A DNA stretch of 49,456 nucleotides from positions 1 through 49,456 of the forward strand of contig CABXDL010000001.1 of the NCBI GenBank assembly GCA_902510995.1, given 5' to 3'. The position numbers were made by a program, and so were the translations under genes. Origin of the DNA: an uncultured Candidatus Actinomarina sp. (GTDB taxonomy: Bacteria; Actinomycetota; Acidimicrobiia; Actinomarinales; Actinomarinaceae). The notes under the pieces are model-generated. The model saw only the letters and a program-made list of their open reading frames with translations. It searched no databases and was not told the DNA's origin. Shown piece by piece: positions 22,560 to 33,743 of the stretch (position 1 is the stretch's first letter; every line of letters starts with the position of its first letter).

Positions 22560-23161
22560 ATACTTGTTATAACATCAATAAATCGATAATCGTTATTATT
22601 AATAAGAAATTTTTCTTGTTTCACGTGAAACTTTTCATTTATTTTTGGTTTGTTTTTTTCATTAGAGGAGACAAGGTATGTATTTTTTTTTAGTGTTTTT
22701 GTGACTTCTTTAATCAAATTAGAAGTTGATAAATAGCACCTAAGGGTAAAGACAACATTTTCTTCATGATTTAATATTTCTATAGCGTTTCTTTCTTCTG
22801 CAAAAAGTTCTTGCATTTCTAGTATTTTTATTAATCTATCTAGTTCAAATATTCTGCTTTTTTTATTATCTATTAAGGTTACTTTTTTTTTGCTTACGAT
22901 AGATATTGGTATTCCTGGAATTCCTCCACCTGTTCCTATATCAAAAATATTAGCCTTTTTTAGACCCAGGTCTTCAATTATTTTATAAAAATATAATGAA
23001 TGCACTATGATTTCGTCCCAAATGTATTGATCTGTTTTTGGACTAATTAAACCGGTTTTAATGCCTGTAATAGAAAGCCATTCGTGATATTTAACAAGCT
23101 TTTCCTTGTTTTTCTCTAGGTATTGTTCTCCCCACGCTGGAATTTGGGGATTATAGGTCAT
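22556..23161 (-). CDS. rsmG: 16S rRNA (guanine-527-N7)-methyltransferase
   Basis: IFDIGTGGGIPGIPISI SAM motif; adjacent to parA. Confidence 0.9.
   Translation of the reverse strand: MTYNPQIPAWGEQYLEKNKEKLVKYHEWLSITGIKTGLISPKTDQYIWDEIIVHSLYFYKIIEDLGLKKANIFDIGTGGGIPGIPISIVSKKKVTLIDNKKSRIFELDRLIKILEMQELFAEERNAIEILNHEENVVFTLRCYLSTSNLIKEVTKTLKKNTYLVSSNEKNKPKINEKFHVKQEKFLINNNDYRFIDVITSM
22617..22632. promoter_or_regulatory. parS site
   Basis: TGTTTCACGTGAAACt, 15 of 16 to consensus TGTTTCACGTGAAACA; lies inside rsmG and encodes FHVKQ. Confidence 0.93.
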
Positions 23162-25466: not shown

Positions 25467-25496
25467 TTCGCGAAAAACATATAAGCTTCGCGAAAA
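25467..25496. repeat. Pair of TTCGCGAAAA boxes with 20-bp pitch in the rpmH-dnaA divergent intergenic region
   Basis: 25467-25476 and 25487-25496, each containing the palindrome TTCGCGAA. Confidence 0.8.
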
Positions 25497-25668
25497 TTAT
25501 ATTAACTAGTTTTTGTAATCTATTTTTTTTTTACTTGTTTTTATTGACTATTTATGAAAATAGTTAAGTAATTTAGGCTTTTTTTTGGTCTGTTTTTTTG
25601 TTCCTTCTGTTTAGTTTGTTTTTAACACTCTATGTTTTTTTTAGCTAATAAATTAAATTATTATAAGC

Positions 25669-26982
25669 ATGAATCAAAAACTTATAGACTTTAAACAAAA
25701 GATACTGGAAGAGCCCCTTTCAAAAACAGATAAATATTGGTTGGAACAGGTTGATTTTCGTACAAACCAAGAAAATGAGCTTAATTTATTTGTGAATTCT
25801 GAATTTGTGAAAAGTTCCATTGAAAAAAAACTCTATAAAAAAATTAAAAGTGTTTACAAAGACGTTTCTGGTTCTGATGATTGTATTTTTGTGTTAGATA
25901 AGAAGCTTAAAAAGGAAATTAATTTAAAGGCGCCTTCTGTTGATCTTTTTGAAGAAAAATTAATTGAAGAAGAACTTGTGGAAGAAAAGGTTTTGGTTGA
26001 TCTTTCTGTTTTTGATAGTCTTTTGGTTGGTGTTTCTAACAACTTAGCCATAACAGCCGCTAAAAATGTTGTTTTAGATCCTGGTCAAAGGTTTAATCCG
26101 CTTTTTGTTCATGGAGAACCCGGTGTTGGTAAGACTCACCTTTTAAAAACAATGGAACAATCTTGTGTTTCGTCTTATTATATAGATTCTGAATCTTTTT
26201 TAGAGTCTTACGTAAGCGGTATAAAGAACCAGGATATTGATTTGTTTAAAAATAAAATCAGGTCTGTCGATGTTTTGCTAATTGATGATATCCAGTTTTT
26301 TGTTGGTAAAAAGGGTGTCTCTGAAGAGCTTTTTCATACAATAAATTATTTTTTGAACAACGAAAAAGCTGTTGTTTTAGTTTCTGATCAAAAACCTCAA
26401 AACCTTTTGGGTTTTCCAGAGAGGCTTATCTCTAGAATATTAAACGGTTTGGTTACAGACATTGGTAAGCCAGATAAAAAGATGTTTGAAGAAGTTTTGA
26501 GGGTTAAAAACGATAGTTTCGAGGGGTCTCTATTAACAAAAAAGGAGGTTGTAGAGCTTGTCAATCTAGAAATTAACAGCTTTAGAGACATAAATGGAAT
26601 TGTTAACAATCTCGTAATAAACAAACAAACGGGTGTTGGTAATTCTGAATACATTAAGAGCCTTGTTGGTGAGTCAAAAAAGAATGTTGTTGCTTACTTG
26701 ACTCCTGATTTTATTTTGGACTATGTTTCAGAGGTGTACCAAATAGATAGAAAATTAATAGTTTCAAAAAACAGGAGCTCTAATGTCGCTGAAGCTCGAA
26801 ACCTTTGTGTTTCTTTAATTAGAAAACATACAGACCTTTCTCTTTCTCAAATTGGTCTTTTTCTTGGCGGACGATCTCACTCAACAATCTTGTCTTGTTT
26901 GGGGCGGTCCAAGGACTCTACTTTGTTGTTAAAAGAAGTGAACATTTTCGACAATAAAATAAGTATTGTGGGTGCTTCTTAG
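25669..26982 (+). CDS. dnaA: Chromosomal replication initiator DnaA (divergent)
   Basis: NPLFVHGEPGVGKTHLL, VDVLLIDDIQFF, C-terminal LGGRSHSTIL (variant of GGRDHTTV). Confidence 0.95.
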   Translation: MNQKLIDFKQKILEEPLSKTDKYWLEQVDFRTNQENELNLFVNSEFVKSSIEKKLYKKIKSVYKDVSGSDDCIFVLDKKLKKEINLKAPSVDLFEEKLIEEELVEEKVLVDLSVFDSLLVGVSNNLAITAAKNVVLDPGQRFNPLFVHGEPGVGKTHLLKTMEQSCVSSYYIDSESFLESYVSGIKNQDIDLFKNKIRSVDVLLIDDIQFFVGKKGVSEELFHTINYFLNNEKAVVLVSDQKPQNLLGFPERLISRILNGLVTDIGKPDKKMFEEVLRVKNDSFEGSLLTKKEVVELVNLEINSFRDINGIVNNLVINKQTGVGNSEYIKSLVGESKKNVVAYLTPDFILDYVSEVYQIDRKLIVSKNRSSNVAEARNLCVSLIRKHTDLSLSQIGLFLGGRSHSTILSCLGRSKDSTLLLKEVNIFDNKISIVGAS

Positions 26983-27098
26983 TTGGTGGTTTTTTATGTT
27001 TAAAGTTTTCAACAGTGTTTTCTTTTTAAAACCTTTGTGTTTTTCAGTTTTAAACATTTTAAACAGCTTTATTATTATTAAATCTATAAGGAATTAAA
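26983..27098. other. Candidate oriC (dnaA-dnaN intergenic)
   Basis: Three TTTTNAACA 9-mers (27006-27014, 27048-27056, 27057-27065) plus inverted TGTTTAAAG (26997-27005); strand composition switch here; same location as oriC in other actinobacteria. Confidence 0.55.
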
Positions 27099-28214
27099 TT
27101 GAAATTTAAAATAAAAACAAAATATCTAAAAGAAGCCATTTCAGCTGTTTCCAGGGTTGTTGACCCTAGACCCGCGACACCTTCTTTACAGGGCCTATAC
27201 CTTAGAACAAGAGAAAACCTCCTCGAGGTTATTGGTTCAGATCTAGACGTTGTTTTAAAAGCAAGAACAGAGGTTAAAACAGAAGTAGAAGGAGAAACCT
27301 TAGTAAACGCGAGGGTTTTGTCAGAGATCGTTAGAAAACTACCTACAGGAGAGGCAACCTTTTCAGACATAGGATCTGAACTAAAAGTAGAAATTAAGAA
27401 GATGGACTTTCAACTAAGAAAACTAGACGAAAAAAAATATCCAGAAGCACTCCTTGAAGAAAACAGCAAGGACAACACAGAAGAAGTAGAGACAACAGAA
27501 CTCTTTGAATCAATAAAAAAAGTTGGAATAGCAAGCTCACCAGAAGGAGGAAGACCGGTTTTAACAGGCGTTTACTTTAACAACAAAAACAACAAAACAG
27601 AATTAGTAGCAACAGACAGCTATAGACTGGCAACACACAGCTTGTCCGAAATACCAATAAAAGACATAGGAATTATTTCATATAGATCACTAAACGAAAC
27701 AATAAGGGTTTTTGAAAACTCAGACGAACCTATAAAAATTAATTCTAACGAAAGAGAACTCCATTTTTATAATGATAAATTTTCCGCATCCTTAAGAAAA
27801 CTAGAAGGAACGTTTCCAGAATACAAAAACCTGTTTCCAAAAGAAACCCTTTTTTCAATAGAGGTCAAAAAAACAGAGCTGTTAGAGTCTCTAGACAGAG
27901 CAACCGTTGTTGCCGAAGGTTTCATTCCGGTTAAAGTTGTTTTGGAAAGCAACGAAACACTCAAAATAACAACAGTTAACAAAGATATTGGTGGTGGGAA
28001 CGAAGAGGTTTCTATAAAAACCCTAGGAGTTGATGTTGAAGACGTTTCCGGTTTTGAAATGTCTTTTAACCCAAACTACTTCATGCAAGGCATAGAGGTT
28101 TTAGACGGAGACACAGTTTATATCAGGTTTTCAGGAAATGAGAAACCTGTTGTTATTCAAGGCGAGGTAGAAAACTATAAATATTTACTAATGCCTGTAA
28201 GAACAAACCAGTGA
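27099..28214 (+). CDS. dnaN: DNA polymerase III subunit beta (TTG start)
   Basis: 371 aa; sliding clamp motifs TPSLQGLYLRTRENLLEVIGSDLD, ending YLLMPVRTNQ. Confidence 0.95.
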   Translation: MKFKIKTKYLKEAISAVSRVVDPRPATPSLQGLYLRTRENLLEVIGSDLDVVLKARTEVKTEVEGETLVNARVLSEIVRKLPTGEATFSDIGSELKVEIKKMDFQLRKLDEKKYPEALLEENSKDNTEEVETTELFESIKKVGIASSPEGGRPVLTGVYFNNKNNKTELVATDSYRLATHSLSEIPIKDIGIISYRSLNETIRVFENSDEPIKINSNERELHFYNDKFSASLRKLEGTFPEYKNLFPKETLFSIEVKKTELLESLDRATVVAEGFIPVKVVLESNETLKITTVNKDIGGGNEEVSIKTLGVDVEDVSGFEMSFNPNYFMQGIEVLDGDTVYIRFSGNEKPVVIQGEVENYKYLLMPVRTNQ

Positions 28215-28498
28215 AAAAAAAAGAACCTGAAAAAATTAACGTTGAAAAGAACCCTTTGGGGATAAGTTTTTCAGACTCTAAAAAAGTAAAAAACTATTTT
28301 GATAAAAAAAACTTTTTATGGTCTAAAGAAACCACCCCAGGACCAGTAATAGGTACCACAGCAACACTATATACAACTTCAAAAAGAGCAATGGACTTAA
28401 TAAAACTTGAGGAACAAAAAATATTAATAGATATTGAAAAAAAAACAAAAATAAAGCTAAACACACTGGACGTTCAAATCCAAAATAGCCAACAATAA
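28211..28498 (+). CDS. Short DUF721/DciA-like protein (tentative)
   Basis: 95 aa; position between dnaN and gyrB like DUF721 in other actinobacteria; TATLYTTSKRAMDLIKLEEQKILIDIEKKTKIKLNTLDVQI resembles the DUF721 C-terminus. Confidence 0.45.
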   Translation: MKKKEPEKINVEKNPLGISFSDSKKVKNYFDKKNFLWSKETTPGPVIGTTATLYTTSKRAMDLIKLEEQKILIDIEKKTKIKLNTLDVQIQNSQQ

Positions 28499-33569: not shown

Positions 33570-33594
33570 TTTGCTACACTTTTTTTAAAGAATA

Positions 33595-33679
33595 AAGCAA
33601 AGAAGCGAAGTTAGTGAAAACCTAATACTGTCCCGCAACTGTGATTCGAAAGATAAGTCAGGTCGACTTTTTGCTTTTA
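33595..33679 (+). ncRNA. Cobalamin riboswitch (short form)
   Basis: aagcgaagttagtgaaaacctaatactgtCCCGCAACTGTgattcgaaagataAGTCAGGtcgac matches the B12 box and core; P1 stem AAAGCAAA / TTTGCTTT closes it. Confidence 0.9.
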
Positions 33680-33743
33680 CAACAACAATCCTCGAGAGAA
33701 GGAGTGGAGTTTCAAACTTTTTCTCGTGGCAAGAAAGGAAAAT

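Follow-up and report, generated by a model that had tools for sequence, protein, structure and literature searches.

The locus and the data sets

The window, i.e. the whole stretch of 49,456 nucleotides that was analysed, comes from a Candidatus Actinomarina draft genome of 982 kb (~1 Mb) in 32 contigs, which is 75% complete. To the left of the proposed origin it carries yidC-jag-gidB-parA-parB followed by rnpA-rpmH, and to the right of dnaA dnaN, gyrB and gyrA. The rpmH call is a reading of the sequence and not a family match. As congener set we used the 34 nearest genomes found by search, all belonging to one genus. The following features are referred to in the text.

22617..22632, + strand: parS-like site TGTTTCACGTGAAACT, 1 mismatch, within gidB and adjoining parA and parB; origin-proximal landmark
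25669..26982, + strand: dnaA, 437 aa, Pfam Bac_DnaA 5e-45 and Bac_DnaA_C 5e-18; the sole DnaA of the genome
26839..26892, + strand: DnaA signature helix region with S423, S433, H434, S435 and S439 (E. coli numbering), from alignment to 1J1V and 8BTG
26983..27098, no strand: dnaA-dnaN intergenic gap, proposed oriC core, 116 bp between the dnaA and dnaN ORFs
26997..27005, - strand: candidate DnaA box B1, CTTTAAACA (TGTTTAAAG on the + strand), inverted and abutting B2; AACA at positions 6-9 invariant in 34/34 congeners
27006..27014, + strand: candidate DnaA box B2, TTTTCAACA; position 6 is A in 23/34 congeners, box lost in some clades
27048..27056, + strand: candidate DnaA box B3, TTTTAAACA; ACA invariant in 34/34, position 6 A25 T6 G3 C0
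27057..27065, + strand: candidate DnaA box B4, TTTTAAACA; AC invariant in 34/34, position 6 A22 G12 C0
27066..27068, + strand: GCT spacer, standing in for the usual short GC-rich spacer (GCCC or similar there in class relatives)
27069..27080, + strand: four DnaA-trios, TTA x4 (TTATTATTATTA), 3'-AAT-5' on the bound strand
27099..28214, + strand: dnaN, Pfam DNA_pol3_beta; right border of the proposed origin

Between dnaN and gyrB lies an ORF of 95 aa (28211-28498) without Pfam match, and no recF-sized gene was found there in the ORF list and Pfam matches of the window. An AdoCbl (cobalamin) riboswitch is located at 33579-33714 on the + strand, upstream of a gene at 33726.

Candidate boxes in the dnaA-dnaN gap

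The gap measures 102-126 bp and can be aligned across the 34 congeners. B1 and B2 form an inverted pair, B3 and B4 an abutting tandem pair. The motif copies were found where the initial annotation had placed them (26997, 27006, 27048-27065 and 25619-25627). Its description of them as TTWTNCACA with the C at position 6 changed to A applies to the forward copies, whereas the inverted copy CTTTAAACA departs at position 1 too. Canonical TTNTNCACA is absent between 19663 and 33900, the positions of the two flanking matches in the window, in agreement with the earlier statement that no canonical-like sites flank dnaA.

The comparison with sister genomes that had been asked for showed that the gap layout is kept across the 34 congeners, as is a position 6 other than C in B1, B3 and B4: C occurs in 0 of 102 sites, A, G or T being found instead, and none of these three boxes reads as a canonical box (TTWTNCACA, with C at position 6) in the 34 genomes. 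What stays constant genus-wide is [A,G,T]ACA in positions 6-9. The full TTTTNAACA is typical of the clade of the window and several others, not of every clade, and in some clades decay has affected the TTTT half as well as box B2.

Upstream of dnaA

TTTTTAACA is present at 25619-25627 and had been listed with the boxes. The four boxes in the gap were retained and this copy was rejected, as it is part of another conserved element, TTTTnnnCACTCT, of which the AACA part occurs in 2 of 15 representatives. The TTTTnnnCACTCT element (25612-25640, ~45 bp upstream of dnaA) contains TTTTTAACA, is conserved in the genus and is probably a promoter or regulator site. Furthermore, two TTCGCGAAAA repeats, 20 bp apart, are found in the rpmH-dnaA gap (25467-25476 and 25487-25496). 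This CGCGAAA-type element pair aligns in most of the 15 representative congeners, and the repeats are candidate sites of a regulator of rpmH or dnaA.

Motif statistics

Since TTTTNAACA was picked after looking, for which reason the initial annotation had considered a proper enrichment test necessary, the motif was tested on mostly independent gaps. The sample consisted of 15 representative gaps, i.e. the gap of the window and those of 14 congeners. TTTT.AACA, where '.' means any base, ranked first of all gapped 4+4 motifs with 19 matches, against a mean of 1.57 and a maximum of 6 in 1000 shuffles of the 15 gaps. It also led the 280 motifs obtained by permuting its letters (19; runner-up 9). 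Canonical TT.T.CACA gave 0 matches in the same 15 gaps. Within the window's own genome, three forward copies of TTTTNAACA in 116 bp correspond to a Poisson P of 2.6e-6, and dinucleotide shuffles of its gap reached 3 copies in 1 of 5000 cases. Of the 6 occurrences of the exact tandem TTTTNAACATTTTNAACA in 39 congener genomes, five fall in the dnaA-dnaN gap.

The proposed genome-wide count gave a different result: TTTTNAACA is found 214 times in 982 kb versus 201 times for the reversed pattern, which means that the motif is enriched in the gap and not in the genome as a whole. A genome-wide TTTTNAACA regulon was consequently rejected, the counts equalling the reversed control, with nothing to point to an excess beyond the origin.

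Spacer and DnaA-trios

The TTA run at 27069-27080 was not part of the initial annotation and is, as judged from sequence, a putative DnaA-trio run; likewise, the altered DnaA helix described below is new. The trios are likely to be the first DNA unwound. All 34 congeners have trios of the types TTA, TTG or CTA, in agreement with the rule YTR derived for such motifs (PMC8235120). B4 is separated from the first trio by 3 bp and B3 by 12 bp, the latter falling within the reported peak of box-to-trio distances of 10-13 bp (PMC8287927). The gap thus has the sequence pattern of a basal unwinding system (BUS), that is at least three trios with a conserved middle base, at most 16 bp from a DnaA box, the box here being non-canonical. 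A search that admits canonical boxes only could therefore overlook this gap.

The DnaA protein

Both DnaA domains score over the cut-off, Bac_DnaA with 153.9 bits and Bac_DnaA_C with 65.3 bits (AAA+ domain III and HTH domain IV, respectively), and the protein aligns near full-length with B. subtilis DnaA (8BTG). Those AAA+ residues that serve oligomer formation and single-strand binding are in normal alignment; for example, the arginine finger R256 falls opposite R264 of B. subtilis DnaA, and V182 opposite its ssDNA-binding residue I190. One dnaA copy per genome was found in each of the 37 congeners with a match, so the altered protein must be the initiator.

The base-contacting residues of E. 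coli DnaA are R399, P423, D433, H434, T435 and H439 (PMC7561715). From this set, R399 and H434 only are retained in the 34 congeners, all of which have S433, S435 and S439, together with S, N, T or V at position 423. Assignment to the DnaA family is based on domain architecture and gene context, and on the fact that the genome has no other DnaA.

Few parts of bacterial replication are as constant as the CACA end of the box and D433 of DnaA. When 397 Actinomycetota genomes were searched with the altered-helix pattern, 25 were matched, and the DnaA match was that of the window alone; no DnaA with this pattern was found in the 396 other sampled genomes.

Relatives of the same class

We compared the gap with its counterparts, 173-481 bp long, in 23 relatives that belong to the same class but to other families (L035-L057). 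D433 is present in 23/23 and the other base-contacting residues in nearly all; positions 399-423 of L039 are misread owing to a one-residue deletion. Most of the 23 carry TTGTCCACAATCCACAGCCC-CTACTACTA or similar at the box site, e.g. TTGTCCACA-ATCCACA-GCCC-CTACTACTA. As in Actinomarina, boxes and trios lie at the dnaN end of the gap. The relatives differ in having canonical CCACA boxes, CTA trios and a DHTT (or DHST) helix. The upstream box is 11 bp from the first trio, compared with 12 bp in the window. Because canonical boxes and trios occupy the homologous place in these relatives, the Actinomarina elements are their positional counterparts. B3 corresponds to the upstream member of the tandem pair (box 6 in B. 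subtilis) and B4 to the trio-proximal one.

This positional homology with canonical boxes, together with the box-spacer-trio geometry, bears on the explanation that the origin lies in the gap and DnaA binds elsewhere, the repeats serving another factor such as the dnaN promoter or another regulator. Two promoter-like matches do overlap 27049-27078, and the unrelated conserved palindrome pair TTCGCGAA upstream of dnaA could bind another factor. However, shuffles gave more promoter-like matches (8.3 vs 5), and we regard this explanation as very improbable.

A stronger competitor, still rather unlikely in our view, is that the boxes are AT-drifted weak DnaA sites at the origin and that DnaA still prefers TTATCCACA, so that specificity has been loosened and not switched. 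A GC content of 31-33% near dnaA, the acceptance of A, T and G at position 6 of B3 and B4, and the decay of the TTTT half in some clades would all be expected from such sites. Drift towards weak sites is harder to combine with the complete lack of C among the 102 sites and of canonical boxes in the representative gaps, or with base-reading residues of DnaA that are not only changed but fixed. Moreover, canonical boxes and D433 are both still present in L051, a class relative whose GC content is 33%; AT drift alone is therefore insufficient, although it may have started the change of box and helix. L052 and L057 combine a DHST helix with canonical CCACA boxes, and T435S alone thus seems insufficient as well.

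Assignment of the origin

On a 340-kb congener contig, cumulative purine skew reaches its minimum at 193,683, which is 35 bp before dnaA (193,718). Gene order and this skew agree with the definition of oriC by a dnaA-dnaN location and a switch in nucleotide skew. The GC-only cumulative skew of the same contig has no clear minimum at dnaA and its minimum is elsewhere, and GC skew alone leaves the position of the origin unsettled. In the paper on the order (PMC7771536), genomes were linearised at dnaA and GC skew is mentioned; oriC did not turn up in a term search of the main text.

The GC-only minimum, and a draft completeness of 75% by which a locus could be missing, are the points in favour of a true origin elsewhere, at a locus where canonical boxes are clustered; the initial annotation had named such a cluster as evidence against its own proposal. 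No cluster of at least three TTWTNCACA matches exists in the genome, where 93 matches compare with 97 for the reversed control. The purine skew minimum at dnaA and the synteny of parAB/parS, gyrBA, dnaN and rnpA-rpmH argue further against another locus, and we consider it exceedingly improbable. The candidate oriC with a non-canonical box family is thus backed by position, gene order, trios, conservation, homology with class relatives and the helix change.

Proposed mechanism

We consider it highly probable that the gap is the chromosome origin, that the sole DnaA binds its AT-shifted boxes by means of a helix with replaced residues, and that opening is of the BUS type. The motifs, their conservation, the positional homology, the fixed residue changes and the single dnaA can be read from the sequences themselves. 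We infer from sequence that DnaA would bind to the boxes, that the trios would be the site of opening and that the altered specificity would stem from the residue changes. DnaA would read TTTTNAACA-type boxes, with A and sometimes G or T at position 6, through the helix in which D433, T435, H439 and P423 are replaced. The tandem boxes B3 and B4 would seat DnaA beside the four TTA trios, from the AAA+ domains a filament would grow onto the trios' single strand, and the duplex would open, as in the basal unwinding system of B. subtilis. In the simplest view, the origin would be of the ordinary two-box-plus-trio kind, its box code having been re-tuned.

The box seems to have changed along with its reader. 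This co-change is one evolutionary event in the Actinomarina lineage, and the residue responsible is therefore not separable within the lineage. An orthogonal box code is quite possible, and we stop short of calling it probable: Actinomarina DnaA would then not bind TTATCCACA and canonical DnaA would not bind Actinomarina boxes, as a result of D433S, T435S, H439S and the loss of P423. Box-type sequences for comparing the binding of DnaA domain IV are TTTTAAACA, TTTTACACA and canonical TTATCCACA.

Box and D433 have both changed across an abundant marine lineage with the origin layout otherwise kept. Actinomarina is thereby a natural experiment on the co-evolution of initiator and origin, and supplies residues to swap. 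Origins of this type could escape origin finders that rely on TTATCCACA-like boxes.

Comparison with known systems

The closest layout is the BUS of B. subtilis oriC, with boxes 6/7 and DnaA-trios (PMC6669920, PMC8287927). Tandem boxes, a short spacer, trio repeats, the dnaA-dnaN location and the box-to-trio distance of 12 bp are alike. The Actinomarina origin differs in having A at position 6, tandem boxes that abut at 9-bp spacing, a GC-rich spacer cut to GCT, and TTA instead of CTA trios.

Altered helices are also found in genomes with more than one DnaA. The tested genomes of the Desulfovibrionales loci (L100-L137) carry two DnaA proteins, one with R/K/S/T-HST and the other with DHST, and position 6 is mixed at both copies (A19 C13 T11 G7 upstream of the paralogue; A13 C7 T2 near the main copy). 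Thermoguttaceae of the Planctomycetes (L102, L112, L117, L124) have an SHST DnaA plus a second DnaA, and no box cluster was found around the SHST dnaA. Separate sites may exist for a DnaA paralogue whose DNA-reading helix differs.

The DnaA of Thermotoga maritima (PMC10316083) resembles that of Actinomarina in lacking D433, with S at position 433 (NRSHPVV in the alignment), and in having a non-canonical box. The box core of Thermotoga is ACCTACCAC, whereas TTTTNAACA of Actinomarina differs from TTWTNCACA at position 6 alone. T. maritima is thus an independent precedent for S433 with a non-canonical box.
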